From: Paenibacillus kribbensis
Lineage (GTDB): Bacteria > Bacillota > Bacilli > Paenibacillales > Paenibacillaceae
Reading direction: 5' to 3'
Length of the DNA: 64,000 bases
Assembly (NCBI RefSeq): GCF_002240415.1
Contig: NZ_CP020028.1
Coordinates: 3,621,501-3,685,500, forward strand
Within the stretch, counting starts at the first letter, position 1. Every line of letters starts with the position of its first letter. The notes below the pieces were generated by a model. It was not told the origin of the DNA. It worked only from the letters and a program-made list of their open reading frames with translations, and ran no database searches. Shown here one piece after another: positions 1,448-15,800 of this stretch. The position numbers and the translations under genes were made by a program.

Positions 1448-2209
1448 GTGCAAAATAAGAAATTGAACAAGATATGGCTGACAGGACTTGGGGTGACTTT
1501 ATGCATCCTTTGCAGTTCTGTATTTGCGCCCTTTGTTGATGCAGCTTCTCAGCCCGGTAAAAAAAGCACTGAACTGAACAAGACCACAGATGGTCAATCC
1601 AGCACATCTTCACCCTATCATGCATTTGCCAAGCCTGTTGTCCTAATCGATGTTGGCCATGGCGGTGTGGATGGCGGAACAAGTCACAAGAAACTTTTGG
1701 AAAAAGACATCAACCTTGCCATCGGTCAAAAACTGTACCTGATTTTGCGCTCGCAGGGCTATCCTGCTGTCCTGAATCGGGACAAGGATTACGCACTGAG
1801 TGACGATAACCGCTGGCTTCCCTCCAAATCGAGACACCTAAAAGACCTTGCCCAGCGCAAAAGTCTCACCGAGCAGCTGCCTACCTCCTTGGTTGTAAGC
1901 CTCCATGTTAATTGGGCCAAGCGCTCCGACAAACGGGGACCGATTGTTTTATATCAGGATGAAGGCGGCAGTTATCTGTTAGCTGAGCGAATTCAGCATT
2001 CATTAAACCGCTTATTTTGCATGAACAGAGAAACCATTTACGGAAAACCCTTTTATCTTCTGAATACAATCCAGCATCCCGCAGTCATTGTGGAAACGGG
2101 ATTTATCAGTAATGCACAAGACAGAGCCATGCTTTCAGCGGATCGTGGACAGAAAAACATTGCTGAGGCTATAGCCGAAGGCATTATTGCACATTTGACG
2201 GTATGGTAG
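1448..2209 (+). CDS. N-acetylmuramoyl-L-alanine amidase (Amidase_3), secreted
   Basis: This 253-residue zinc amidase should cleave the MurNAc-L-Ala bond of peptidoglycan outside the membrane. A signal peptide or anchor covers residues 1-32 (basic start, hydrophobic core, Ala-rich end). The Amidase_3 domain starts near residue 63 with VVLIDVGHGGVDGG, whose His is a zinc ligand. It continues with the acidic ligand in LLEKDIN, the His of SLHVNW and the catalytic Glu of VIVETGF. The size and single domain resemble CwlD, which makes muramic-delta-lactam in spore cortex, but general LytC-type autolysins share the fold and no SH3 or SPOR domain is present. The GTG start at 1448 has GGAGG 8 bases upstream. 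Its 3' end overlaps the convergent deacetylase gene by 26 bp. Confidence 0.85.
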   Translation: MQNKKLNKIWLTGLGVTLCILCSSVFAPFVDAASQPGKKSTELNKTTDGQSSTSSPYHAFAKPVVLIDVGHGGVDGGTSHKKLLEKDINLAIGQKLYLILRSQGYPAVLNRDKDYALSDDNRWLPSKSRHLKDLAQRKSLTEQLPTSLVVSLHVNWAKRSDKRGPIVLYQDEGGSYLLAERIQHSLNRLFCMNRETIYGKPFYLLNTIQHPAVIVETGFISNAQDRAMLSADRGQKNIAEAIAEGIIAHLTVW

Positions 2210-3137
2210 TGTTGGCCGCAGGATTCCCCTTCCATCCCCATTCAGAACGCACCAGATCGCTAATGCCAACAAACTTGGCATGATCTTTTAGCGTAGGAAC
2301 CGATGATTGGAGAGCCGAGGACGTGTACCTGCCAGCTACACCGACATGTCCAATCGTTACGCAGGTGTCGTGCTTGTCGAGCCATTCCATTACCTTTGTA
2401 ATTTGCCGATTCACATGGGCGAGCGTATGAGTATCGTCCAGAAAAATATCATTGCGCACGGGTGGCATTCCCTTTTCAGCGGCAAGTTCAGGTACCACAG
2501 ACCAATAATTTGTACGGCTATCGACAAAAAATAGCCCATGCTCCTTGCAAACATCCAGCACAATGGACATAATGCGCTTGTCTGAGGTGACTTTGGAACC
2601 CATGTGGTTATTCATCCCTATCGCATGAGGGACATTCTTAATGGCTGCTGTCACCTTGGCGCGTACTTCATCATCCGTCATATTGGCCTTGATCGCTCCC
2701 GGTCCAAGCCATTCCGGCTTTCCCTGCTTTGGCTCCATGGGAAGATGAACGATGACATCGTGACCGCGCTTATGCGCTTCGATGGCATCCTGTTGGGTTG
2801 TAGGCAGAAAGGGCATCACAGCCACCGTGATTTTAACGGGTAATTGTAAAATCTGCTCTGTCCCTTTCATGTTGTTCCCCATGTCATCGATAATGATGGC
2901 AACCATTTTTTTCTCATGTTCCTGCTTGTCTGTTGCGTTTGCAATATCAGTTCCCATGCTCCAAGCAGTCCCACACACCATGAACATCAAACAGGCCGAA
3001 ATACAGACCACAGCGGTTCTTCGTATTTTAGAGCTTGGGTGATAAACATGCGCATACGTTGGCTGGTTTCGATCACGAAATGCCTGTATCGCTTTTTTAA
3101 TGATATTTCTCATGTTCAGCTTCCGTCGTTTACTCAT
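2184..3137 (-). CDS. Divergent polysaccharide deacetylase family protein
   Basis: This 317-residue protein has a basic N-terminus and one hydrophobic segment at about residues 40-60 (VVCISACLMFMVCGTAW), so it is a secreted or anchored protein. From residue 79 the domain reads MVAIIIDDMGNN, with the paired Asp of the divergent polysaccharide deacetylase family (YibQ type, a NodB relative). The pattern HDVIVHLPMEP follows, and later FFVDSRTN. Family members are thought to act on envelope polysaccharides, but the substrate is unknown. A good ribosome site (AAGGAGG) precedes the ATG. Together with the convergent amidase this forms a small envelope-modification pair, although the two genes overlap tail to tail and are not co-transcribed. 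Confidence 0.85.
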   Translation of the reverse strand: MSKRRKLNMRNIIKKAIQAFRDRNQPTYAHVYHPSSKIRRTAVVCISACLMFMVCGTAWSMGTDIANATDKQEHEKKMVAIIIDDMGNNMKGTEQILQLPVKITVAVMPFLPTTQQDAIEAHKRGHDVIVHLPMEPKQGKPEWLGPGAIKANMTDDEVRAKVTAAIKNVPHAIGMNNHMGSKVTSDKRIMSIVLDVCKEHGLFFVDSRTNYWSVVPELAAEKGMPPVRNDIFLDDTHTLAHVNRQITKVMEWLDKHDTCVTIGHVGVAGRYTSSALQSSVPTLKDHAKFVGISDLVRSEWGWKGNPAANTTIPSNVQ

Positions 3138-3889: not shown

Positions 3890-4975
3890 CTATTCATAGA
3901 ACGGCAATTGGATTAGATCCTTTTTCGGAGATCCTGTCAATACTAGGCTCTTCTCTTTTCTGACCAGAACGTCATCCTCAATCCGAACTCCTCCAAGACC
4001 TGGCAAGTATAAGCCCGGTTCAACCGTCATAATCATATTCTCCACGAATTCGTCTTCAGACCGATAACTGATATAAGGCGCTTCATGGTTATCCAGTCCA
4101 ATGCTGTGGCCAGCACCATGATTAAATCGATCATTCATATTTTCTCTTACAAATGGACTACGAATCATCGAATCCAGTTCTTTGCTTTTCATTCCGTGAC
4201 AAATAGCGTCCACACCCGCCAACTCCGCCTCCAGAACCAAATCATAAATTTCACTAAGGCGTGAATCAGGCTTGCCAACCGCAATCGTTCTGGTCATGTC
4301 TGAAGAATATCCCTGGAAGGTGGCACCAAAATCCAGGATCACCATATCTCCCAGTTCGATCATTTTCTCGCTGGCCACTCCGTGGGGATAAGCAGAGCGG
4401 ATGCCGGATACAACGAGGGTTTCGAAGGGAGTCCCCTCGGACCCGATACACTTCATGAAGTACTCCATTTCCGTTGCCACCTGCTTCTCGGAAATTCCCG
4501 GGCGTATAAAATTTAAAATGTGCATAAACGTCCGATCAACTATTTTTACGGCCTCTAAAGTTTTGCAGATTTCATCCTCGTCTTTAACCGCTCTGAACGC
4601 CTCTACACAACCATCCGTTATTCTGGTCTTGATTTGGGCCAACGACTTGAAAAGCTCTCCATGGCTGTAGCTTAAATAGGAGCCTTCAAATCCAATCTCT
4701 TGAATATGATGCTTACGGATAATTTCTGCTGTTTCGTCCAGCAATGATCGATTCCAGCACACAATCTGAATCAGATCACTTAACTCTTCGCGGGCCTGTT
4801 CCACATAGCGGCTGTCAGTAATGAACAAAACAGCATCTCCAGTAAGGATCAAAGATGAATCCTCCCCTGTAAACCCGCACAGATAACGGACATTCTTCGG
4901 ATTGCTTACGTACATGGCCGGCAGCTTCCCTCCGCCATTTTCTTCAGTAAACGTTCGATTCGCTTCATCACCCAC
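3890..4975 (-). CDS. M24B Xaa-Pro peptidase; probable 1-base deletion near start
   Basis: This is a metallopeptidase of the Xaa-Pro aminopeptidase/dipeptidase group, which removes residues ahead of proline. All five metal ligands are visible: two Asp in ILDFGATFQGYSSDMTRT, His in HGAGHSIGLDNHE, Glu in MTVEPGLYLPG and Glu in GVRIEDDVLV. A creatinase-type N-terminal domain begins at AMYVSNPKNVRYLCGF. The open frame starts at GTG 4975, only 2 bases after GGAGG, which is too close. The well-placed start is ATG 4968, 9 bases after GGAGG. It is in another frame, encodes MKRIERLLKKMAEG (a typical family start) and stops after 20 codons. Adding one base in the C run at 4928-4930 joins the two frames. 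It lies 59 bp downstream of the GH127 gene. Sequencing error, real mutation or internal initiation at 4915 are the options. Confidence 0.8.
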   Translation of the reverse strand: MGDEANRTFTEENGGGKLPAMYVSNPKNVRYLCGFTGEDSSLILTGDAVLFITDSRYVEQAREELSDLIQIVCWNRSLLDETAEIIRKHHIQEIGFEGSYLSYSHGELFKSLAQIKTRITDGCVEAFRAVKDEDEICKTLEAVKIVDRTFMHILNFIRPGISEKQVATEMEYFMKCIGSEGTPFETLVVSGIRSAYPHGVASEKMIELGDMVILDFGATFQGYSSDMTRTIAVGKPDSRLSEIYDLVLEAELAGVDAICHGMKSKELDSMIRSPFVRENMNDRFNHGAGHSIGLDNHEAPYISYRSEDEFVENMIMTVEPGLYLPGLGGVRIEDDVLVRKEKSLVLTGSPKKDLIQLPFYE

Positions 4976-5000
4976 AGCCTCCGTTATAACTAGAAAGAGA

Positions 5001-5022
5001 GGGGGAATTCATTAATTCCCCC
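5001..5022. terminator. Hairpin between GH127 and M24 peptidase genes
   Basis: A 9-bp perfect stem (GGGGGAATT/AATTCCCCC) has a 4-base loop and is followed on the minus strand by a pyrimidine-rich but not pure T tract (TCTCTTTCT). It could be a weak terminator, an attenuator or an mRNA processing/stability element that lowers expression of the downstream peptidase gene. Confidence 0.45.
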
Positions 5023-5034
5023 CTTCTGGTCTAA

Positions 5035-7314
5035 TCATTTAGTCTTAATATATAGATGGTAGTGTTCATGGTTCAGTTCAGCTAGTGGCGCAAATTCGAG
5101 ATGCAGATCCTTGAAAATAAAACGGTTTGAATTTGCCACTCGCTCAAATTTTTCCGGGAGATTCCCATGATTCAACGGCAGTTCAAAATAATCTTTTTGG
5201 TCCGAGACAGCGGCCAGAATATAAGGGCCAAAGGCCAGAGATGCGATATCGGCTTTATCCGGTGTATGCTCCAGACGCAGCCGAGGTGTAAACTTCATGG
5301 TCACTTGATCTCCTTTGTTCCACTCTTGCGAAAGAACAAGGTAACCGTTCTCCTCTACAGTATTCACTTTTGTATGATTTACGAAGGTCGTGACTTCTCC
5401 TTGATGCCAGTAGGGAATGCGAACTCTTAAATTCGTTCTCGTTAACGTTTCAATGCGAATTTCGACTTCACCGTTGAAAATTTCCGGTACGGATTGTACA
5501 ACCTGCAATCCCTTACCCTCATCATTCAATACCGCTGGAACGAACAGGTTGACATATAAGGAATCGCCATCCTCGAAGAAAATCGCTTCGGCATACTTAA
5601 AGTGGTTTTCTAATCCCGTACCGTGGCAGCAGGAGTTTTCCTCATCATATCCTTTTTGTCCGCCTGGACTAGTGGGCATAAAGTACGTGCTGGCGCCCAG
5701 GCATTCATGATCTGTCGAAGAAAGAATATGGTTTAGCATTGTTCTTTCGTAATAATCCATGTACTTTGCATCGTTCTCATACACATATAGCTGTTTGGTC
5801 AATTTCAGCAAATTGTATGAAGCACAGGTTTCAGCCGTATGTTCCGTAAGATGCGTGCCTATTTTATGCGGCTGCTTAAACATTTCCCCTTCGCCGGTTC
5901 CTCCGATGGAGTAGATATGCGCGTTCACAACAGATTCCCAGAAAAACTTTGCGATATCATAATATTTTTGTTCCCCGGTAGCCTCGAAAATCTTGAATGC
6001 GCCTACGATTTGTGGAATATGCTGGTTGGCATGCATTGCGCCCAAAGCATCAACTTGTTGTTCCATCGGAAAGAACAAACGATCATTATCGAACAGCTTT
6101 GCAGCAGCAATATGATGTTCCTTTTGCGTGTAAGTAAAGAGTTCGGCCAGCGATTCATTGATGCCGCCAAATTCGCCAGCAATATACAAGCCCCACATTT
6201 TTTTCAATTGTTCATGTGGCAGTACGCTTAACCGGTTGTAAATCCAGTCCCCCACTTTGTCGGCAATAACCAGCGCCGGTTCTATTCCCGCTATATGATA
6301 ACTATCCAACAAGCCAGCTAATATTTTGTGCAAGGTATAATAAGGAGCCCAAATCTTCGGGTATCGTGTATACACTTCCAGCAAATCGAACTGCTCTTCG
6401 GAATAGGCGCTAAGAAATCCGTAATGGTAACGATCATCCGCCTCGAAGGCAAGCTGCACTTTGTTTAACTCATCGACCATGTAAGCCAATTTCTGGTGAA
6501 TCCGTTCATTCCCGGTGGATGCATAGCATAAAGCCAGAGCGGAGAGATAATGGCCGGTGGTATGCCCTTTCAGTAAGCTTTCATCCGAGTCCCACCCGAT
6601 CATGGCCGGTGCATTTAACGTATCCAAACTGGCGGCCTTCCTAAAATTGTATAGCATTTGATCATCATTGACTGTCAATAAAAATTGCAGTCTCCGATTC
6701 TGCGCGGATTTCAACAAAGAGGGGCCTTCCAGATGTACTTTTTGTGTCGAAATGTCATGCAGTTGAGGTGCTTTATTGCTCTTGTTTTCAACCTGGCTCT
6801 CAATGAAGATAACAGCCTCTACCTCATAAAGCGTATCCGTCAAATAGCCAGCAGCTTTTTGCTCCCCGACTTCCGAAAAACAACGATGTTCTCCCCCGTG
6901 CCATGTCACGGAATGGGCCAGGACATCTCCACTTACGGTTCGAATGGAGACCGCGGAAGGCAAGTAAAATTCCTTGTTCACTTCCTGCTTTATAACGATG
7001 GGAAAGACTTTTTCGACCTGGATTCTATTTTTCTCCTCCAAAATTTTAACTTCAAAAATCTTTTGAAGGCTCGACTCTCCATACTGAAAGGTAGCGGTAA
7101 TCGGAACCACCCGATCCCCCTTCCCGTACTCGGGCTGGTGTACTTTCCCCGAACCGTCAATCCAACGATCATCTTTCGACACCCAAGTAATTTTAGAACC
7201 ATTTTTGCCTTCAGTCGGCAAATGAATATCGAACTCAACCGTCTTCAAATTTCCCAGGTGCAAAACCTCAATATCCCCTTGAACGATTTCCAGATCACTC
7301 CGTTTATTTGACAT
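5035..7314 (-). CDS. GH127 beta-L-arabinofuranosidase with N-terminal Ig-like domains
   Basis: This 759-residue retaining glycosidase belongs to the HypBA1 family (former DUF1680), which releases L-arabinose from beta-L-arabinofuranosides such as those on plant hydroxyproline. The family's Cys/Glu zinc cluster is present: Glu495 and Cys497 in AETCASYN, and Cys562-Cys563 in NSCCHGTG, with one of the pair as nucleophile. Residues about 5-95 resemble an atrophied bacterial Ig domain (KITWVSKDDRWI). Residues about 100-170 resemble a group-4 bacterial Ig domain (SVTWHGG then GYLTDT). No signal peptide is present, so it is predicted to be cytoplasmic, which is unusual for Ig-linked enzymes. The ATG start has AAGGAGG upstream. 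It is divergent from the AraC gene and followed by the Xaa-Pro peptidase gene. Some GH127 members act on other sugars, for example in rhamnogalacturonan II. Confidence 0.88.
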   Translation of the reverse strand: MSNKRSDLEIVQGDIEVLHLGNLKTVEFDIHLPTEGKNGSKITWVSKDDRWIDGSGKVHQPEYGKGDRVVPITATFQYGESSLQKIFEVKILEEKNRIQVEKVFPIVIKQEVNKEFYLPSAVSIRTVSGDVLAHSVTWHGGEHRCFSEVGEQKAAGYLTDTLYEVEAVIFIESQVENKSNKAPQLHDISTQKVHLEGPSLLKSAQNRRLQFLLTVNDDQMLYNFRKAASLDTLNAPAMIGWDSDESLLKGHTTGHYLSALALCYASTGNERIHQKLAYMVDELNKVQLAFEADDRYHYGFLSAYSEEQFDLLEVYTRYPKIWAPYYTLHKILAGLLDSYHIAGIEPALVIADKVGDWIYNRLSVLPHEQLKKMWGLYIAGEFGGINESLAELFTYTQKEHHIAAAKLFDNDRLFFPMEQQVDALGAMHANQHIPQIVGAFKIFEATGEQKYYDIAKFFWESVVNAHIYSIGGTGEGEMFKQPHKIGTHLTEHTAETCASYNLLKLTKQLYVYENDAKYMDYYERTMLNHILSSTDHECLGASTYFMPTSPGGQKGYDEENSCCHGTGLENHFKYAEAIFFEDGDSLYVNLFVPAVLNDEGKGLQVVQSVPEIFNGEVEIRIETLTRTNLRVRIPYWHQGEVTTFVNHTKVNTVEENGYLVLSQEWNKGDQVTMKFTPRLRLEHTPDKADIASLAFGPYILAAVSDQKDYFELPLNHGNLPEKFERVANSNRFIFKDLHLEFAPLAELNHEHYHLYIKTK

Positions 7315-7337
7315 CGGTTTTCCTCCTTGCCCACTTT

Positions 7338-7351
7338 TAAAATCGCTTTCA
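7338..7351 (-). promoter_or_regulatory. Candidate catabolite-responsive element (cre) before GH127
   Basis: The minus strand reads TGAAAGCGATTTTA, which matches the loose CcpA-box pattern TGNAANCGNWNNCW except for one position. It lies 24-37 bp before the GH127 start codon, where CcpA binding would block expression. This is a motif match only. Confidence 0.4.
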
Positions 7352-7450
7352 CACCATTCATGTTACAAGAAAACATTTTTAAAGTAAGTAGTTTAAAAAA
7401 AGATTAGGTGGATTATATTTACTATATGGCAGATTCGATTGGAGGGTCTT

Positions 7451-8311
7451 ATGATGTACTTCGTTAATAAAGAGTATTTGGAGCAGGCCACCTTCTTGTC
7501 CGCTGGCACTTTTATTACAGATCAGCCCTGGATCCACAAAGAAAGAATCATCGATAGTTATGAAATCATCAGTCCCGTGGATTCAACCCTGTACATCGAA
7601 AGCAATAACGTTCCCTATGCTATTGAATCGGGCGAGATTCTTGTTGTTCCTCCTCACACGCTTCACCGGGGACTTAAAGTTTACCAAGGCCGTATGAAAT
7701 TTCACTGGCTTCATTTTTCGGCAAGCTGTTTAAAACTTAAAACAGAAGCGGAGGTCATCCAGGAGATTAGTGAAAACGATCTGGACCGGTTGATTATTTT
7801 GCCTGTTTATACCAACAAAGTAGACTCCAGGCGCTTCCATATCATGTTTAATCAATTGCTCGATTTATACGAGGAAAAGAAACATAAAAATTACTTAAAC
7901 GCTTATTTATCCTGCCTCTTATACGAATTGACCTCGGAAATTATGAATTATCTGATACAAAAAAATTTTAACGGAAACCAGTTGCAACCGATTCAAGACT
8001 GGATCAGAATTCATGCCTTTGAGAATATCACACTCGAACACATTGCAAATCATTTTAAATATAACAAAAACTATTTATCCCGAATTTACAAGGAAAACAC
8101 AGGAATCGGAATTTCGGAACAGATTATTAAATTCAGGCTAAAGCACGCTAAAGAGCTATTAACCGAGACAGACCTGAGCATTATCGAAATCGCTTCGGAA
8201 GTCGGGTACGATGATTCCAAATATTTCATGCGCCTGTTTAAAAAATATGAGACCGTCACCCCCACACAGTATCGAAAAACTTTTTATCGCAAGCACTTTA
8301 ACAAAAAATGA
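7451..8311 (+). CDS. AraC family transcriptional regulator
   Basis: This regulator is about 286 residues long. The N-terminal half is a cupin-like sensor (PVDSTLYIESNNVPYAIESG, then VVPPHTLHRG), the usual sugar-binding fold of AraC-type activators. The C-terminal 100 residues hold the double helix-turn-helix (ITLEHIANHFKYNKNYLSRIYKE and LSIIEIASEVGYDDSKYFMRLFKKY) with the classic ending TPTQYRK. The open frame extends to TTG 7439, but GGAGG at 7441-7445 is inside it and fits ATG 7451 with 5-base spacing, so I start there. It is divergent from GH127 across 136 bp and convergent with GH36, sharing a terminator. The position argues that it controls both enzymes and the transporter, probably as an activator responding to a released sugar. 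Confidence 0.92.
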   Translation: MMYFVNKEYLEQATFLSAGTFITDQPWIHKERIIDSYEIISPVDSTLYIESNNVPYAIESGEILVVPPHTLHRGLKVYQGRMKFHWLHFSASCLKLKTEAEVIQEISENDLDRLIILPVYTNKVDSRRFHIMFNQLLDLYEEKKHKNYLNAYLSCLLYELTSEIMNYLIQKNFNGNQLQPIQDWIRIHAFENITLEHIANHFKYNKNYLSRIYKENTGIGISEQIIKFRLKHAKELLTETDLSIIEIASEVGYDDSKYFMRLFKKYETVTPTQYRKTFYRKHFNKK

Positions 8312-8332
8312 TTGATGACGTATACCATTACC

Positions 8333-8382
8333 GATGAACAGCAAGAACCCAAACCTGACGGTTCGAGTTCTTGCTGTTCATC
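8333..8382. terminator. Bidirectional terminator between araC-type gene and GH36
   Basis: A perfect 16-bp inverted repeat (GATGAACAGCAAGAAC/GTTCTTGCTGTTCATC) has an 18-base loop. It lies 21 bp after the AraC stop codon and 5 bp after the GH36 stop codon, so it can end transcripts from both sides. Confidence 0.8.
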
Positions 8383-8387
8383 TGCTT

Positions 8388-10616
8388 TTATTCAGCTTCC
8401 AGAATAAATAATCTGGACAAAAAATCTCCCTTTGGGACTTTGGATAGATAGTCTCCGGAAGTGCTGTCATTCAGCAAGATGCCGATTTCCATCAATTCGT
8501 CTCCATAGTAGTAACGCTCGTCGGCATGGGCAATACGATACTTTTTATCCGCATCTAGCCCGACTAGTTTCAACCGCTTATACCCTACATTGACTTCGGT
8601 AAGTGTACGATAATACCCCACAATGGCGCGATTTTTATTCTTCGCCAGTATCATCCAAGCGGTTGCATTTCCTTCAAATGGACTCACCAGTCGATAGAAG
8701 ATCCCCTGATGTAATAGCTCCTGGTTCTCTTTCATAAAGTCGATCTGTTCCCTTATCGTTGCCTTTTCCGTATCGGATAGCAGGTTTAAATCCAGCTCAT
8801 ATCCGAAGGTCCCAAAATAAGCCACATCTCCTCGTGTGACAAGCGAAGTGCTGCGGTTGGTTTGATGGTTAGGGACCGCCGATACATGAGACCCCATACT
8901 GCTAATTGGATATACCATAGATGTGCCGTATTGGATTTTCAATCGCTCCATCGCATCCGTATCATCTGAGATCCAGCCTTGCGGACAGAAATACAGCATG
9001 CCTGGATCAAACCTGCCTCCTCCGCTGGCACAAGATTCAAATAGCACTTCCGGAAACTTACGGGTCAGTCGTTCGAATAGTTCATACAATCCTAAAATGT
9101 ATTGATGATACACTTTTCCTTGAAAATCACTCTCTCTGCCTGCGGAGAACACTTCCGACATCGAGCGGTTCATATCCCATTTTACGTAGGAGATGTCCGA
9201 CTCGGCCAGTATTTTACTCATAGCTTCATCCAAAAAATCAATGACTTCGGCCTTCGTCAAGTCCAATACGTATTGGTTGCGACCCGGGCTCATGGAGCGA
9301 TAAGGAACAGACAATGTCCAATCGCTGTGGTTCCGATAAAGCTCACTTTCCTTGCTAATCATCTCCGGTTCAAACCAAAGTCCGAATTTCAGGCCCAAAT
9401 CCGTTATTTTACGGGCAAGACCGGAAATCCCGTCAGGCAATTTATCCTTGTTGGGATACCAGTCCCCCAATGAGGTCGTATCCGTATTTCGCTCACCGAA
9501 CCATCCATCATCCAGCACAAATAACTCAATTCCCAACTCGGCGGCCGACCGCGCAATCCCCAATATTTTCTCTTCATTAAACTTCATGTAAGTGGCTTCC
9601 CAGTTATTAATTAAAATAGGCCGCGTCCTGTCTCTCCAAGTCCCTCTCACTAATCGTGTTCGATAGAGCTCATGAAAGGCCTGGCTCATTTGATTCAACC
9701 CTTTATCCGCATACACCATCACGACTTCAGGAGTCTGGAAGCTTTCTCCCGGCAGCAAACTCCAACTGAATCCATGCGGGTGAATCCCCATCATCACACG
9801 CGTGACATCGTAAGTATCCACCTCTACTTGAGCCAAAAAGTTGCCGCTATAGATCAGGCTCAATCCGATCACTTCCCCGAAAAATTCCGTTGTCCCCTTC
9901 CTTTTCAATCCGATGAACGGATTATAATGATGACTGCTATGTCCGCGCAAACTATAAATACTCTGAATGCCCTGATGAAGCGCGTGTGTTTGAATATGCC
10001 GCTCTCTTCCCCAAGCTCCGGTTAGTTCGATCATTTCATAATCTTTGTCCGGAAGATCCAGATTCAAGCTCATCGCGGAATCAAGCCGAATTTTCTGCTC
10101 TCCTGAGTTGCTTAACTTTATGCTTCTGGTCAATACAGGCAAGTCGCTGTATAAGGTATACTGCAATTCCACTTGACAACCAAGCCAATGGTCAATTAGA
10201 AAAACACGAAGCGTTTGAGCTTCCCCGTCAGCCTCCACATAAGTTGCAGGTAATCCTTCAAGCAAAGGTTTGCCGGAGAGAATCTCATGATTCATGTATT
10301 CAAAACACGCCGTATGGCTGCCATCTTCCTGGAGAATATGCAATCCACAATGTCTCAGATCCCCTGAGCCGAATACGGAAAGCTCTTGTTTGACCTGTTC
10401 GAGGGAAAATTTTGCGTTCCCCTCGAACACACAGGGGGACATGTCGCGGAAGCCCAGTTCCAGAAGATGCGTAAAGTCCTCGCGGTCGTGGATTTTTTTT
10501 CCATAATACAATTGCCCCGGCTGATGATTGGGCATGATGCCAAAAATATAACTGATTTCATTATTAAATAGATGAAACTGCCTAGACTTTTCATGATAGA
10601 CGATTGGCACGCCCAT
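8388..10616 (-). CDS. GH36 alpha-galactosidase, cytoplasmic
   Basis: This 742-residue retaining alpha-galactosidase hydrolyses terminal alpha-linked galactose from oligosaccharides or glycoconjugates. It shows the GH36 layout: an N-terminal beta-sandwich (to about residue 320), a central barrel with LFVLDDGWFG near 366-375, the nucleophile Asp481 in YVKWDMNR, the ESCASGGGRFD substrate loop near 527-537 and acid/base Asp551 in WISDDTDA, then a C-terminal beta domain. The length equals bacterial GH36 enzymes such as AgaN (about 730). No signal peptide is present. AAAGGGAGCG precedes the ATG. A complete intrinsic terminator (10629-10663) stands between the transporter gene and this start, so expression needs read-through or a promoter inside the transporter gene. 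Raffinose-type sugars are the usual substrate; Ser-alpha-Gal is an alternative suggested by the neighbours. Confidence 0.93.
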   Translation of the reverse strand: MGVPIVYHEKSRQFHLFNNEISYIFGIMPNHQPGQLYYGKKIHDREDFTHLLELGFRDMSPCVFEGNAKFSLEQVKQELSVFGSGDLRHCGLHILQEDGSHTACFEYMNHEILSGKPLLEGLPATYVEADGEAQTLRVFLIDHWLGCQVELQYTLYSDLPVLTRSIKLSNSGEQKIRLDSAMSLNLDLPDKDYEMIELTGAWGRERHIQTHALHQGIQSIYSLRGHSSHHYNPFIGLKRKGTTEFFGEVIGLSLIYSGNFLAQVEVDTYDVTRVMMGIHPHGFSWSLLPGESFQTPEVVMVYADKGLNQMSQAFHELYRTRLVRGTWRDRTRPILINNWEATYMKFNEEKILGIARSAAELGIELFVLDDGWFGERNTDTTSLGDWYPNKDKLPDGISGLARKITDLGLKFGLWFEPEMISKESELYRNHSDWTLSVPYRSMSPGRNQYVLDLTKAEVIDFLDEAMSKILAESDISYVKWDMNRSMSEVFSAGRESDFQGKVYHQYILGLYELFERLTRKFPEVLFESCASGGGRFDPGMLYFCPQGWISDDTDAMERLKIQYGTSMVYPISSMGSHVSAVPNHQTNRSTSLVTRGDVAYFGTFGYELDLNLLSDTEKATIREQIDFMKENQELLHQGIFYRLVSPFEGNATAWMILAKNKNRAIVGYYRTLTEVNVGYKRLKLVGLDADKKYRIAHADERYYYGDELMEIGILLNDSTSGDYLSKVPKGDFLSRLFILEAE

Positions 10617-10628
10617 TCGCTCCCTTTC

Positions 10629-10663
10629 AAAAAAGTGCTGACAAATGGCTCTGTCAGCACTTT
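10629..10663 (-). terminator. Intrinsic terminator/attenuator between transporter and GH36
   Basis: On the minus strand a perfect 12-bp stem (AAAGTGCTGACA/TGTCAGCACTTT) with an 8-base loop runs into six T. It starts 6 bases after the transporter stop codon and its T run ends 12 bases before the GH36 start codon, leaving no room for a separate promoter. Confidence 0.8.
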
Positions 10664-10669
10664 GTATTT

Positions 10670-12184
10670 TTATACCATGTCCTTTTCAATATTCTTCGAG
10701 AAACCAAAGATAAGTAAGGCCGTAACAAGCAAAAGTCCGGTCATAATAGGGAATAAATTCACTTGCTGATCCGCCGTCTGGTAAAAGCTGAATAAAATCA
10801 GGGCGATTCCGTTCCCTATCGTGCCGGCTTGCCCCCAGGCGGTCTGCATCTGGGTATCATAAGCCTCAGGTGATAATTTAGCGACCAAAGATGAACCGAT
10901 CGGCCAGACTAAATTATCCGAGAAGGTTAGAAACAGGTAATAGAATACCATCCACAGCAAGCTGTACGGAGCCTGGTCCTTAAACAGAACAATCGGAATG
11001 GTTAATAAGCCGTAGCCCAGGGCTGAAAAGATGATACCCAAGCCGTATTTATATGTGGTACGAATATGCGTTGCGCGTGTCTTTGTCCAGAGCCATACAA
11101 AGACCGGCGCCAGTACCAAACCTAAGACGGTGTAGATGGTCCCTACCGATCCCGGAGCGACCTCAAATCCCAAAATCTTACGGTCAATTTTCTGGTCTAT
11201 GAAAATAGCCACCGTCGAGGTCAACATAACTCCGCACAGCGCCATCACGATTTGCGCCGCGAACAATTTGAGGAAAGGCTTCATTCTTCTTCGATCTAGA
11301 GCTGTTAAATCTTTTTTACTCAGCAGATTGGTCAGGAAGACAATCGGAATAATAAAGGTCGCCGAAGTAATAATATTTAGTACTCCCTGGAAAGAAATTA
11401 CTTCTGCCAGGACCAATGCTACAATGGTGCCGATTACAACAATCAGGACCAGCACAAACCGGACAAATATTTTACCGAACTTCCCTTCCTCAAGAGGCTT
11501 GATCGGCTTTTCACCCAGAGGTCCAAAAAACTTGTGTTGGGTGAAAAAGATAACGGCACCATAGAGAAAAGCGGCCACGGCGGCGATAAGAAAGCCGATA
11601 TGGTAGTTTTTCATGCCAATTTGACCGACTAACACCGGAGCAACAAGTCCGGCTATATTGTTGGCAATGGTATGAATTGTAAAAGCGGCATCACGTCTTC
11701 CATTATCGGTTTTGCGATACAGTTGACCGGTCAGAGAAGCATTGCTTGCCCCCATAATTGGAAGCGACATCAAAAACAAAGCGATGAATGCAAAGATTCT
11801 TCCTTGGGTGAGGGAAAAGGCCGGAATGGCCAGGAGTCCGAAAGCCGTCCCTTTTATGATGTTCCCTATGATCAAGGCTTTACGCAGTCCCAATACCCGG
11901 TCCGCCAGCCAGCTTCCCAAAATAACGAAGATTGAATTACATGCACCCATTGCCGTCACCATAGATGCGGCCTGTCCTTGTGTAAATTCCAATCCCTTCG
12001 TAAAGGGAGAATAGAGGTAAAAAATTAAAATCGCGTACAGGGCTCCCCAAGCGAAGGAATTAAAAAAATTACCCGCCGCCAGAGCTCCCACACCCCTTGG
12101 ATGCCCAAAAAATTTGCTGTCGTCAAGGACTTCCTCTAGCCTTGAATTGTTGGAACCTGGCCCATGCTGCAATTCATCGTTCAT
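10670..12184 (-). CDS. POT/PTR2-like MFS transporter lacking the ExxER motif
   Basis: This 504-residue membrane protein has 12-14 predicted helices and is related to proton-dependent oligopeptide transporters. The start FFGHPRGVGALAAGNFFNSFAWGAL parallels the POT signature FFGHPxGL...ExxERFSYYGMR, but the proton-coupling ExxER and the following Tyr residues are replaced by a GNFFNSF stretch. An MFS loop motif is seen in GSWLADRVLGLRKAL, and FWAQ-type or PTR2 signatures are not obvious later. Substrate type and coupling may therefore differ from classical peptide uptake. A ribosome site (AAGGAAATG) precedes ATG 12184. It lies directly upstream of GH36 on the same strand, so import of the GH36/GH127 substrate, either a glycopeptide or an oligosaccharide, is the likely role. 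Confidence 0.75.
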   Translation of the reverse strand: MNDELQHGPGSNNSRLEEVLDDSKFFGHPRGVGALAAGNFFNSFAWGALYAILIFYLYSPFTKGLEFTQGQAASMVTAMGACNSIFVILGSWLADRVLGLRKALIIGNIIKGTAFGLLAIPAFSLTQGRIFAFIALFLMSLPIMGASNASLTGQLYRKTDNGRRDAAFTIHTIANNIAGLVAPVLVGQIGMKNYHIGFLIAAVAAFLYGAVIFFTQHKFFGPLGEKPIKPLEEGKFGKIFVRFVLVLIVVIGTIVALVLAEVISFQGVLNIITSATFIIPIVFLTNLLSKKDLTALDRRRMKPFLKLFAAQIVMALCGVMLTSTVAIFIDQKIDRKILGFEVAPGSVGTIYTVLGLVLAPVFVWLWTKTRATHIRTTYKYGLGIIFSALGYGLLTIPIVLFKDQAPYSLLWMVFYYLFLTFSDNLVWPIGSSLVAKLSPEAYDTQMQTAWGQAGTIGNGIALILFSFYQTADQQVNLFPIMTGLLLVTALLIFGFSKNIEKDMV

Positions 12185-12225: not shown

Positions 12226-12368
12226 TTTTAAAATATAGCAGATAACCGTTTCCAAAACGGTAGCGGATAGTTGGGATAGGTGGACTTTTCTTACCTGGAT
12301 TGCATTACGAAGGTCGTCTATATCGGCTGCCTGTGTTATGGGACGAAGCAAGCTTCGGCCGAAACTCC

Positions 12369-12436: not shown

Positions 12437-13093
12437 TTACACTGCGATGGCCTTCAGATGTGGTGAAACGATCAGCTCAGCCTCTGTTGCCATTTGAACA
12501 TCTTCCACTGTCAAACCCGGAGCAATTTCCTTCAGCATCAGGCCTCTACCCGGAATAACATCGATGACAGCCTTTTCGGTTACGATGGTCTTTACAACAT
12601 TTACAGCGGTCAGGGGGAGCTTGCATTGTGTCAGTATTTTGGGCGCCCCATTTTTGTTCACATGCTCCATGGCTACAATCACTCTCTTGGCTCCGACCAC
12701 CAAATCCATGGCTCCTCCCATACCCGGCACCTTTTTCCCTGGGATCATCCAGCTTGCCAGATTGCCTTTCGCATCGACCTCCAGGGCGCCCAAAACGGTG
12801 ATATCCACATGCCCTCCGCGGATGATGGAAAATGAAAGCGCACTGTCAAAAAAGCTTGCTCCTTCCACGGTTGTAACGTAGTTCCCGCCTGAATCGATAC
12901 AATCGAGTCTTTCTTTTCCGGGAGCCGCTTTGGGACCAACGCCGACGATTCCGTTCTCTGCCTGCAGCATAATATTAACGTTATCGGGGATATAGTCCAC
13001 CACCATTGTAGGCATTCCAACACCAAGGTTGACAACTTCGCCACTTTTGAATTCCTGGGCTATTCTTCTAGCAATTAATTCTCTATTATTCAT
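12437..13093 (-). CDS. ctfB: Acetate/acetoacetate CoA-transferase, subunit B
   Basis: This is the beta subunit (218 residues) of a 3-oxoacid CoA-transferase. With subunit A it moves CoA from acetoacetyl-CoA to acetate or butyrate, giving acetoacetate. The catalytic Glu lies in the conserved QAENGIVGVG, and the family signatures GVGMPTMVVDYIP and GGAMDLVVGAKRVIVAMEH are complete. The open frame reaches GTG 13102. I prefer ATG 13093, which overlaps the ctfA stop by 8 bp (ATGAATAA) with AGGTGGG upstream, a normal arrangement for translational coupling of subunits. Order and partners (thiolase, decarboxylase, A, B) indicate acetone formation rather than ketone-body use, although scoAB-type ketone degradation uses homologous enzymes. 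Confidence 0.92.
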   Translation of the reverse strand: MNNRELIARRIAQEFKSGEVVNLGVGMPTMVVDYIPDNVNIMLQAENGIVGVGPKAAPGKERLDCIDSGGNYVTTVEGASFFDSALSFSIIRGGHVDITVLGALEVDAKGNLASWMIPGKKVPGMGGAMDLVVGAKRVIVAMEHVNKNGAPKILTQCKLPLTAVNVVKTIVTEKAVIDVIPGRGLMLKEIAPGLTVEDVQMATEAELIVSPHLKAIAV

Positions 13094-13754
13094 TATATTC
13101 ACCCACCTTTACAATCGCATCGACAAATATTCCGGGAACGTTAATATGATTGGGGTCAATTTCCCCCGACTTTACGTATTCGTCTGTCTGAGCAACTACA
13201 TACTCTGCCGCTGTAGCCATAACCAAATTGAAGTTGCGTGAAGAACCGTTGATGACAAGATTCCCCGCTTCATCAGCTTTATGAGCTCTGATTAGCGCCA
13301 CATCCGCTTTGAGCGGGAGTTCGAGCAAATATTCCCTTTCGTCAATTTCTATTTTCTTTTTTCCTTCCTCTACAATGGTGCCTACACCTACAGGTGTTAA
13401 AACACCGCCCAAACCGGCTCCTCCTGCGCGTATTTTTTCCGCGAGCGTGCCTTGCGGAAAGAGTTGGACCTCCGCTTCTTTCGTCATAAGGAGCCTTCCC
13501 GTTTCCGGATTGGAGCCGATATAGGATGCAAAAATCCGCTTTACTCTGCCGCTTTTTACAAGTTTATAGATCGATAATTCCGGTGTGCCTGTGTCATTGG
13601 ATATAACCGTAAGATTGCTTGCGGAATTTGTGTCGACAAGCGCACGCACCAGGTCCTCCGGAAAGCCTCCTGCCAGAAAACCTCCGACCATTACCGTGTC
13701 TCCGTCTTTGACCTTCTTAACTGCTTCTTCAGCGGAGATTACTTTGTTATTCAT
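13086..13754 (-). CDS. ctfA: Acetate/acetoacetate CoA-transferase, subunit A
   Basis: This is the alpha subunit (222 residues) of the same CoA-transferase. The CoA-binding glycine-rich loop GGFLAGGFPEDLV lies near residues 23-35, and GAGLGGVLTPVGVGT near 111-125 completes the signature of the family I alpha chain. ATG 13754 has a GAAGGA ribosome site. The stop codon is embedded in the start of ctfB, so the two chains are made in equal amounts. It follows adc by 41 bp without a terminator, which supports a four-gene transcript from 15800 to 12437. Confidence 0.93.
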   Translation of the reverse strand: MNNKVISAEEAVKKVKDGDTVMVGGFLAGGFPEDLVRALVDTNSASNLTVISNDTGTPELSIYKLVKSGRVKRIFASYIGSNPETGRLLMTKEAEVQLFPQGTLAEKIRAGGAGLGGVLTPVGVGTIVEEGKKKIEIDEREYLLELPLKADVALIRAHKADEAGNLVINGSSRNFNLVMATAAEYVVAQTDEYVKSGEIDPNHINVPGIFVDAIVKVGEYNE

Positions 13755-13795
13755 GGTTCCTTCTCCTTATATATATATTTTTAGCAAAGCAAGCC

Positions 13796-14536
13796 TTATT
13801 GGAGATAATCGTAGAGGACTCTCCCATATGGAAGCGTTAAATCGGCAATAAAATGTTTTCCGCCAATATAAGATTTAACCGGCAAATCTGCCACAGGAGC
13901 GTTGACATGGGGGATCAGGCTTAATCTGGCAGGCCCTGACCAGGCTCCTTTTACAGTAATATTTTCGAGATTATACGCCACTAACTGAGCAATTTTGGGG
14001 CTACCATCAACATCAGGAATCAATTTTAAATTAACCTGCGTTTTTGCGATGGCTTTAGCCGTTTCCTGTTCATCAAGCATGTTATATTTGAAAGGCATCG
14101 TTCCCATGGCCACCAGGACGTTATTATAAAGCAGTGTACCCGTCAGTGTCTCCGTTTCCTCAACGCTCAGGCGGGGCTTCGCCCATTTTTTCGGAAATCC
14201 CCAAATTTCACGTCCCCCAAGAATAGCAGGCGCGTTATCCAAATACATTTGGGCCACAAAATTACAGGGTTCTCCATGAAAAGTACACGGAATGACAATA
14301 CCGCTTTCCTCATAGCTTCCTAAACCGGATGAATCGGGCATCTTGATCCATTCATAGGAAACCGTATTGCTTCCATCCGGCTGAAGAGGTTCCGGGACCG
14401 CCTGTCTAATCGCAGCGGGATCGGATTCATAGGTAATGATAAAAAATTCCCGGTTGATGAAGCGGCATGGCGGGCGTCCATAACTGGCGCTGGCCGCAGG
14501 CATGGATTGGAGTGAAAGTACATCTTTTTGATTCAT
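13796..14536 (-). CDS. adc: Acetoacetate decarboxylase
   Basis: This enzyme converts acetoacetate to acetone and CO2 through a lysine Schiff base. The catalytic Lys lies in GREIWGFPKKW, equivalent to the PKK site of the Clostridium enzyme. Other family landmarks are the N-terminal PPCRFINREFFIITYE and YEWIKMPDSSGLGSYEE. The open frame extends to TTG 14569, but AAGGAGAT lies 4 bases before ATG 14536. The resulting 246 residues match the usual length of about 245. It sits between thiolase and CoA-transferase genes, which is the arrangement expected for acetone production from acetyl-CoA. Confidence 0.95.
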   Translation of the reverse strand: MNQKDVLSLQSMPAASASYGRPPCRFINREFFIITYESDPAAIRQAVPEPLQPDGSNTVSYEWIKMPDSSGLGSYEESGIVIPCTFHGEPCNFVAQMYLDNAPAILGGREIWGFPKKWAKPRLSVEETETLTGTLLYNNVLVAMGTMPFKYNMLDEQETAKAIAKTQVNLKLIPDVDGSPKIAQLVAYNLENITVKGAWSGPARLSLIPHVNAPVADLPVKSYIGGKHFIADLTLPYGRVLYDYLQ

Positions 14537-14615
14537 AACGATCTCCTTTCCTTTTGAGAGGTAGTCCAAAAAGTTAGCTTTTTATCACAAAGTGGATTCG
14601 TGTCGAACACTCACT

Positions 14616-15800
14616 TTAAATGAGTGCATTTTCAACCAGCATCGCTATTCCCATTCCCGTTCCGATGCATAACGAGGCGATGCCGTAACGTGAAGATCTT
14701 CGCGCCATTTCATGAACCAACGTAACCAAAATCCTAGCACCGCTTGCACCGACAGGATGCCCGATCGCGATCGCGCCGCCATTGACGTTCACCTTCTCCG
14801 GATTGACCCCAAGCTCTTTCATTACCGCTACTGCTTGTGCGGCGAACGCTTCATTAATTTCAAAAAGATCAATGTCATCGATGGACATTCCCTGTTGCTT
14901 AAGAAGGGTCGAAATAGCTTTCACCGGTCCCATTCCCATATATGCAGGGTCAACGCCAACAAGTGAATAACCCTTGATATATGCCAACGGCTTTAACGCA
15001 TGTTCCTTGCATTTGTCTTCCGATACTACAAGCATAGCTGCCGCGCCATCATTGATTCCTGAAGCATTTCCGGCGGTAACCGTTCCGTTCTCCTTAAACG
15101 CAGTTTTTAAAGTAGCAAGTTTTTCTTTCGTTGTATTTCCTCTTATGTGTTCGTCCTCTGTGAAATAAATCGTTTCTTTTTTGGTTTTAATCATGACCGG
15201 AACAATCTGCTCATCAAAAACCTTCTTGTTTTTTGCTTCTGCAGCCTTGATCTGGCTTTCAAAGGCAAATTCATCTTGCTCAAGTCTTGAAATTCCATAT
15301 TTTTCGGCAACATTTTCTGCGGTAATTCCCATATGGTAATTGTTGATCGGGCACGTTAGGCCGTCGGCCACCAGGGAGTCTACCAATTCACCGTTGCCAA
15401 GCTTGTAGCCGTTTCTTGCATTTCTTAGCAGATAAGGGGCGTTCGACATGCTCTCCATGCCTCCGGCCAATACGATGTTTCCTTGTTCCGCCAATATTGA
15501 ATTGTAGGCTAAAGCGACGGCATGAAGTCCAGAACCGCAAACCGTGTTTATCGTTGTTTCGGGTACACCGATAGGGATACCGGCTTTTAGGGCCGCCTGT
15601 CTGGCAGGATTTTGTCCATTGCCCGCCTGAAGAACATTTCCCAAATAAATTTGATCAATCAAATCAGGCTCTAATTTACTTTGCTGAAGGCATGCTGTCA
15701 TCACGGTTGCTCCCAGTTCAGGAGCGCTTAGGGGCGCAAGGGTTTTGTTAAAAGAGCCGACCGCTGTTCTTAACGGGCTTACTAAAGCTACTTTTTTCAT
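14616..15800 (-). CDS. thlA: Acetyl-CoA C-acetyltransferase (thiolase)
   Basis: This 394-residue biosynthetic thiolase joins two acetyl-CoA to acetoacetyl-CoA. The nucleophile is Cys88 in INTVCGSGLHA. The active-site His lies in GGAIAIGHPVGASGAR and the second Cys in LCIGTGMG. NEAFAAQAVAV is also present. It is the first gene of the acetone operon, with AAAGGAATG upstream of ATG 15800, and 79 bp separate it from adc. The length fits the cytoplasmic tetrameric AtoB/ThlA group, not the longer degradative FadA type. Confidence 0.95.
   Translation of the reverse strand: MKKVALVSPLRTAVGSFNKTLAPLSAPELGATVMTACLQQSKLEPDLIDQIYLGNVLQAGNGQNPARQAALKAGIPIGVPETTINTVCGSGLHAVALAYNSILAEQGNIVLAGGMESMSNAPYLLRNARNGYKLGNGELVDSLVADGLTCPINNYHMGITAENVAEKYGISRLEQDEFAFESQIKAAEAKNKKVFDEQIVPVMIKTKKETIYFTEDEHIRGNTTKEKLATLKTAFKENGTVTAGNASGINDGAAAMLVVSEDKCKEHALKPLAYIKGYSLVGVDPAYMGMGPVKAISTLLKQQGMSIDDIDLFEINEAFAAQAVAVMKELGVNPEKVNVNGGAIAIGHPVGASGARILVTLVHEMARRSSRYGIASLCIGTGMGIAMLVENALI

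Follow-up and report, generated by a model that had tools for sequence, protein, structure and literature searches.

Results

Gene content of the block

We analyzed a 64,000-nucleotide (nt) stretch of Paenibacillus kribbensis DNA (contig NZ_CP020028.1, positions 3,621,501 to 3,685,500; hereafter the window), with emphasis on a block of five genes at window positions 3890 to 12184. An initial annotation had placed five open reading frames (ORFs) here and had read them as a possible system for dismantling plant hydroxyproline (Hyp)-rich glycopeptides; the ORF listing gave exactly the same coordinates. The features of the block are as follows.

3890-4975, minus strand: M24B Xaa-Pro peptidase, cassette type (ORF listing; Pfam Peptidase_M24, 6e-59)
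5035-7314, minus strand: GH146-like protein, predicted β-L-arabinofuranosidase (Pfam Beta-AFase-like_GH127_cat, 4e-88; aBig_2 at the N-terminus)
7386-7412, minus strand: putative operator TCCACCTAA-N12-CTACTT, 71 nt upstream of the GH146 start codon
7439-8311, plus strand: AraC-family regulator, divergent from the GH146 gene (Pfam HTH_18, 1e-20)
8312-8387, no strand: 76-nt gap between the AraC and GH36 genes, the site of gene X in five other cassettes
8388-10616, minus strand: GH36 α-galactosidase (Pfam Melibiase, 7e-161)
10670-12184, minus strand: POT/MFS-family transporter of a divergent clade (Pfam PTR2, 7e-23)
12258-12284, minus strand: putative operator TCCACCTAT-N12-CTACCG, 73 nt upstream of the POT start codon

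The product of 3890-4975 contains Creatinase_N and Peptidase_M24 domains and the M24 metal motifs of an M24B Xaa-Pro peptidase, with scores below the NCBIfam equivalog cut-offs. All metal and nucleophile motif strings that we presume to be typical of GH146, GH36 and M24B proteins were present. The AraC start is listed as TTG, and an in-frame ATG follows a few codons downstream. As the initial annotation had claimed, neither glycosidase had a signal-like N-terminus in a crude hydropathy test, and the M24B peptidase likewise lacked one; of the two presumed-exported window proteins that served as controls, 1448-2209 was flagged and 2184-3137 was missed. The GC content of the block genes (0.386-0.463, compared to 0.456 for the window) gave no hint of recent foreign origin.

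The block is inherited as a unit

Transporters of the same clade were found in 9 of 394 Paenibacillaceae genomes, distributed over 3 of 19 genera. The gene order at the nine loci was transporter, GH36, gene X where present, AraC on the opposite strand, GH146 and M24B; this arrangement is referred to as the cassette. Both the AraC and GH146 genes were kept at all nine loci. The cassette-type M24B gene was intact at seven, reduced to a 128-residue piece in genome G124 and missing in G123, in which the transporter gene was also broken. The GH36 gene was intact at six loci, split into three pieces in G126 and missing from the cassettes of G123 and G237. The M24B proteins of the cassettes were 60-81% identical to the window's copy, compared to 32-41% for the other M24B proteins of the same genomes, and the corresponding values for GH36 were 76-85% and 37-51%. 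The initial annotation had named a lack of co-conservation as a refutation of its proposal; the comparison did not bear this out, since other species have the five genes in an identical order. Contamination and chance adjacency were rejected because the block recurs in this way. The block is thus one co-inherited unit, patchy in its distribution and partly decaying, and the cassette may have spread horizontally.

Two promoters share a putative operator

The transporter and GH146 promoters have one bipartite element in common, with equal spacing. The pattern TCCACYYA-N13-CTACYK occurred 19 times in the nine cassette genomes; 17 of these occurrences were cassette promoters and 2 lay elsewhere. 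Both sites were present in eight genomes and one in G237, where the spacer of the GH146 site is one base longer. The reversed pattern occurred nine times in the same genomes. The pattern was derived from these same cassette promoters, so its weight rests on its sharing by two unrelated promoters and its near absence elsewhere. Together, the common operator in both operons and the same gene order in other species indicated that the block is more than a chance assembly. From these sequence patterns, the block is best explained as a putative two-operon regulon (transporter-GH36 and GH146-M24B) under one AraC-family regulator.

In the same genome as the window, a related operator lies between a paralogous AraC gene (35% identical) and a GH127/146 gene (L032:2182-5467), and is one of the two sites found outside the cassettes. 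A 12-bp terminator-like hairpin (window 10632-10663) lies between the transporter and GH36 genes and could reduce the level of GH36 relative to the transporter.

The arabinofuranosidase is GH146-like

The PF07944 protein encoded by 5035-7314 scored 268 bits against 5opj, which we take to be the GH146 enzyme BT0349, 72 bits against 6ex6, 60 bits against 4qjy (a chain named GH127) and 31 bits against HypBA1 (3wkw, 3wre). Scores of 155 and 154 bits were obtained against 8k7y and 8k7x, structures of a β1,3-L-arabinofuranosidase tied to PMC10850190 through their names. The GH127 label given in the initial annotation was therefore replaced: by sequence the protein is GH146-like and not of the HypBA1 type (268 versus 31 bits). 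It carries the motifs ETCASYN at residue 495 and CCHGTGLEN at residue 562, giving an E/C/C/C set of zinc and nucleophile ligands that matches the description of GH146 in PMC10850190 (this and the other papers cited are drawn on from excerpts). The GH146 enzymes XeHypBA1 and Bll4HypBA1 cleave arabinofuranose (Araf)-β1-Hyp, which Bll3HypBA1, an enzyme active on the termini of arabinogalactan protein (AGP) and arabinan, hardly does (PMC10850190). The window protein is a predicted β-L-arabinofuranosidase, with Araf-β-Hyp as its predicted target.

The transporter belongs to a divergent POT clade

The transporter matched TIGR00924 with 184 bits (cut-off 130) and GkPOT over its full length (2e-50), and is a member of the POT/PTR family in the wide sense. 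Among its best 120 homologues (of 130 matches), 87 (P0001-P0087, 41-99% identical) stood apart from 33 canonical POTs (24-28% identical). The clade replaces the two glutamates and the arginine of the ExxER motif by N (81/86), N (86/86) and S (84/86), the TM4 lysine by G (87/87) and the TM7 glutamate by V, T or A, while the TM10 glutamate is mostly D or G. The 33 canonical POTs among the matches listed kept these residues (E 33, E 32, R 33, K 33), as well as the TM7 and TM10 glutamates. Compared to GkPOT and PepTSt, which belong to the same family, the series E, E, R, K, E thus reads N, N, S, G, V/T/A across the clade, which also has conserved motifs of its own (GNFxNS...W and PIMGASNxSLTGQLY). 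The initial annotation had described a peptide-type importer; the canonical proton and peptide residues are absent, and, judged from these substitutions, the transporter cannot use the textbook proton/peptide chemistry of POTs. A search of plasmids with the transporter returned only matches below 60%, with 24.7-29.3% identity among the 25 matches listed.

A Pro-Pro-endopeptidase-like protein accompanies some of the cassettes

Five other cassettes (L015, L016, L017, L022 and L025) carry an additional gene, X, after the AraC gene. X is an HExxH protein, and the motif was present in all 119 homologues fetched, 2 of which had a signal-like N-terminus by crude hydropathy. The predicted fold of X matched Pro-Pro endopeptidases (PPEPs) best, with Foldseek TM scores to the whole model of 0.30-0.35, in a match listing from which the lack of other fold families proves nothing; its N-terminal part matched S-layer Ig-like domains. 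A phmmer search of X against the PDB gave no match at E<=1. The model suggests a PPEP-like fold, with predicted cleavage between two prolines, and Y275 and E282 of X are presumably equivalent to the PPEP active-site residues. X differs from PPEP-1, -2 and -3 (17-19% identity) in its extra N-terminal Ig-like domain and, unlike the known PPEPs, which are extracellular (PMC12828418), has no signal-like N-terminus.

Distant relatives of X, such as those at L027:11833-12747 and L028:11830-12738 on Rhizobium plasmids, occurred in 51 plasmid records (49 from Rhizobium). Three of these regions were inspected, and in two of them the relative adjoined nodA; a symbiosis role for the PPEP-like protein in Rhizobium is possible. 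A scan of viral contigs with the X alignment returned 24 stretches that fit a pattern, none of them a relative.

Relatives of the GH146 gene lie in hydroxyproline operons

A tblastn search of plasmids identified a 55% identical GH146 protein in P. cellulositrophicus, encoded within a Hyp-type operon. This operon also encodes an Xaa-Pro peptidase, two proline-racemase-family proteins, a DapA-family protein, an α-ketoglutaric-semialdehyde-type dehydrogenase, FAD and 2Fe-2S proteins and a sugar-type ABC importer, a gene set that we take to be the trans-4-hydroxyproline pathway. Its proteins scored below equivalog cut-offs, and the 4-hydroxyproline epimerase model was missed by 9 bits.

In 325 genomes of the family, 25 GH146 matches were obtained at E<=1e-150: the nine cassette proteins, seven at 52-56% identity, six at 45-46% and three at 46-47%, the last aligning over the catalytic part only and encoded by large ORFs (L053-L055). 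All seven members of the 52-56% group lay within a Hyp-catabolic operon, in addition to the one on the plasmid. The Hyp-operon GH146 proteins formed one clade (100/99), separate from the cassette GH146 proteins, in a tree that included five rows of odd composition, a long branch (L025b) and one protein (P0255) grouped as linked without a size match, and from which no group count was used. These operons thus hold the nearest GH146 relatives together with an Xaa-Pro peptidase, whereas the window block is without Hyp-degrading genes. In five of the seven (L042, L043, L044, L045 and L052) the genes are separated by an ORF of about 890 residues; the two that were scanned (L042:10935-13616 and L044:6431-9100) had LamG and F5/8C domains together with a weak match to matrixin, and may encode a secreted glycoprotein-binding protease. 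All six members of the 45-46% group adjoined an SDF symporter gene and an AraC gene. One of these is a second GH146 gene (46%) of the window's own genome (L033:7298-11003), and the arrangement is repeated in five other genomes.

The L025 cassette carries both L-serine dehydratase subunit genes at the place of GH36. Similar genes (48-49% identical to those of L025) lie about 4.5 kb beyond the cassette M24B gene in G210 (L038:2849-4419) and may be housekeeping genes. In the window's genome, a Hyp operon lies 0.9 Mb from the block; it includes M24B and ABC genes of its own, and the 14 kb read there contained no GH146 gene. A Hyp epimerase of this type was present in five of the nine cassette genomes.

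Shared source sequences outside Paenibacillus

For the transporter, X and GH146, homologue lists were drawn up from the best 120 of 130, 174 and 3708 matches, respectively. Source sequences of equal size were common to the three pairings of these lists in at least 22, 17 and 27 cases, of which at least 15, 12 and 17 were shorter than 100 kb, and at least 11 were common to all three lists. Jittering of the sizes gave an expectation of 0.2-0.3, and the 33 canonical POTs gave 0. The sharing of source sequences is therefore far beyond chance; for the Clostridium, Bifidobacterium, Coriobacterium and metagenomic members, linkage rests on this coincidence of size, and a shared chromosome size (2,115,681 or 4,178,102) means the same genome only. 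Sources among the matches included Clostridium, [Clostridium] innocuum, Enterococcus phoeniculicola, Coriobacterium glomerans, Atopobiaceae and Bifidobacterium. Small shared contigs were assigned tentatively to Actinomycetota, solely because the transporters that they encode resemble those of Bifidobacterium.

In the window, the block adjoins an acetone-type gene set (12437-15800) that comprises CoA-transferase A and B, acetoacetate decarboxylase and thiolase genes.

Discussion

Few plant proteins resist proteases as strongly as extensins do, and to our knowledge the known bacterial systems remove their sugars outside the cell. Their Ser-Hyp3-5 repeats bear Ser-Gal and Hyp-Araf1-4 (PMC7933510); single β-Araf residues on Hyp occur in pollen allergens (PMC8012813), and the secreted protease Svx recognises extensin through its arabinose chains (PMC13164431). 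We propose that the block probably serves the cytoplasmic catabolism of Hyp-O-arabinosylated plant material, with short extensin-type glycopeptides as the most likely substrates. Short Ser-Hyp glycopeptides would be freed by other organisms or by secreted proteases and imported, still glycosylated, by the divergent POT-like transporter; import in this form is suggested by the linkage and by glycosidases without signal-like N-termini. GH146 would then remove β-L-arabinofuranose from Hyp, and GH36 may remove α-galactose from Ser. Judged by fold and family, X, where present, would open Pro/Hyp-rich backbones and M24B would cut Xaa-Pro/Hyp bonds. In genomes with a Hyp operon, that of the window among them, Hyp would be degraded; arabinose and galactose would feed into central metabolism.

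The substrate class, plant Hyp-rich glycosylated material, is well supported by co-conservation, the common operator, the GH146 relatives in Hyp operons, the linked X and the serine dehydratase of L025. This part of the initial proposal is supported; the GH127 label was corrected, and a peptide-type importer through which intact glycopeptides enter stays putative. Several observations weigh against the proposed glycopeptide route. Because all canonical residues checked are lost, the transporter may not carry peptides, and the poor action of Bll3HypBA1 on Araf-Hyp means that membership of GH146 does not fix the substrate. The M24B protein shares only 40% identity with the M24B of the Hyp operon, and its nearest solved relatives are ordinary Xaa-Pro dipeptidases. 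Ordinary α-galactosidases are the closest relatives of GH36, and none of the other four genes varies as much across the cassettes, with GH36 intact at six of nine loci. The Hyp epimerase described above is missing from four of the nine cassette genomes. Within 20 kb of the three GH146 matches in L053-L055 there were no Hyp or SDF genes. The window's genome yielded no gene X, and the block is also without a secreted protease. The genes are rare as well. The clade transporter was found only in the window's own genome both in a sample of 75 genomes of the genus, in which eight further genomes had POTs at 26-28% identity, and in a phylum sample (1 of 398 genomes), and X was found in none of 378 genomes of a class sample.

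Canonical POTs bind peptide termini through residues that are lost here, and this loss would also suit a transporter of small Hyp-O-arabinosides, perhaps with a Ser-O-galactoside, or of very short conjugates, in which case the peptidases would serve unrelated or secondary peptides. The SDF symporter, a carrier of the single amino-acid/dicarboxylate type, beside the 45-46% GH146 group and the sugar-type ABC importer of the P. cellulositrophicus operon are consistent with such import of glycosylated amino acids, yet X and the cassette-specific M24B are co-conserved with the transporter and would be superfluous in a pure system of this kind, which we consider unlikely. It is quite improbable that the locus serves a plain oligosaccharide of α-galactose and β-L-arabinofuranose (raffinose-type plus arabinoside, arabinan or AGP fragments), with M24B as a bystander. 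The closeness of GH36 to ordinary α-galactosidases, the action of Bll3HypBA1 on AGP and arabinan termini (PMC10850190) and an MFS sugar transporter gene about 5 kb from the L032 AraC/GH127-146 pair with its related operator would fit that substrate, but not the co-inheritance of two peptidases, the Hyp-operon company of the nearest GH146 group or the L-serine dehydratase of L025. The alternatives offered in the initial annotation, a raffinose/arabinoside locus and rhamnogalacturonan II, have become far less probable, given the two peptidases and the Hyp operons that accompany the enzymes. Arabinosylated plant peptide signals of the CLE type bear the same Hyp-O-arabinosides as extensin (PMC7933510), and distant relatives of X lie on rhizobial symbiosis plasmids. 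We regard such signals as a very improbable target in place of extensin, since GH36 and the serine dehydratase suggest a substrate with Ser-Gal and Ser-rich repeats, both typical of extensin, and the rhizobial relatives are just 26-28% identical over about 62-65% of X.

The extensin-type glycopeptide system proposed here would differ from those described. Bifidobacterium longum attacks the β-L-arabinofuranosides of Hyp-rich glycoproteins with HypAA, HypBA2 and HypBA1 (GH43, GH121 and GH127, with an ABC importer): the sugar is cut outside, the disaccharide β-Ara2 is imported, and the final β-L-arabinofuranosidase is intracellular (PMC7263609). The block has no GH43, GH121 or ABC genes, nor did the scanned genes of its flanks include GH121 or a sugar ABC importer; it has instead a GH146-like enzyme, a POT-like transporter and peptidases. 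Xanthomonas euvesicatoria encodes XeHypAA, XeHypBA2 and XeHypBA1; the last, GH146 according to PMC10850190, frees arabinose from Ara-Hyp (PMC6085000). A putative prolyl oligopeptidase gene adjoins xehypAA and is called a pseudogene, the enzymes naturally carry signal peptides, which were left off for expression, and are thus exported, and the excerpts of that paper describe no transporter (PMC6085000). Our literature searches found no bacterial locus of the kind reported here.

The block may represent a third, intracellular route, in which arabinosylated and galactosylated Ser-Hyp peptides would be taken up whole by a hitherto undescribed POT clade without the ExxER/Lys chemistry and dismantled by GH146, GH36, a cytosolic PPEP-like enzyme and an Xaa-Pro peptidase, and of which the core (transporter, X and GH146) would occur in scattered Bacillota and probably also in bee- and insect-associated Actinomycetota; we consider the balance of evidence for this wider proposal to be even. 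If it is correct, glycosylated peptides themselves would serve as nutrients, and a transporter family annotated as 'oligopeptide:H+ symporter' would gain a different job. The cassette would also be a source of enzymes for plant glycopeptides, namely a Hyp-arabinofuranosidase, a Pro/Hyp endopeptidase and an Xaa-Hyp peptidase.

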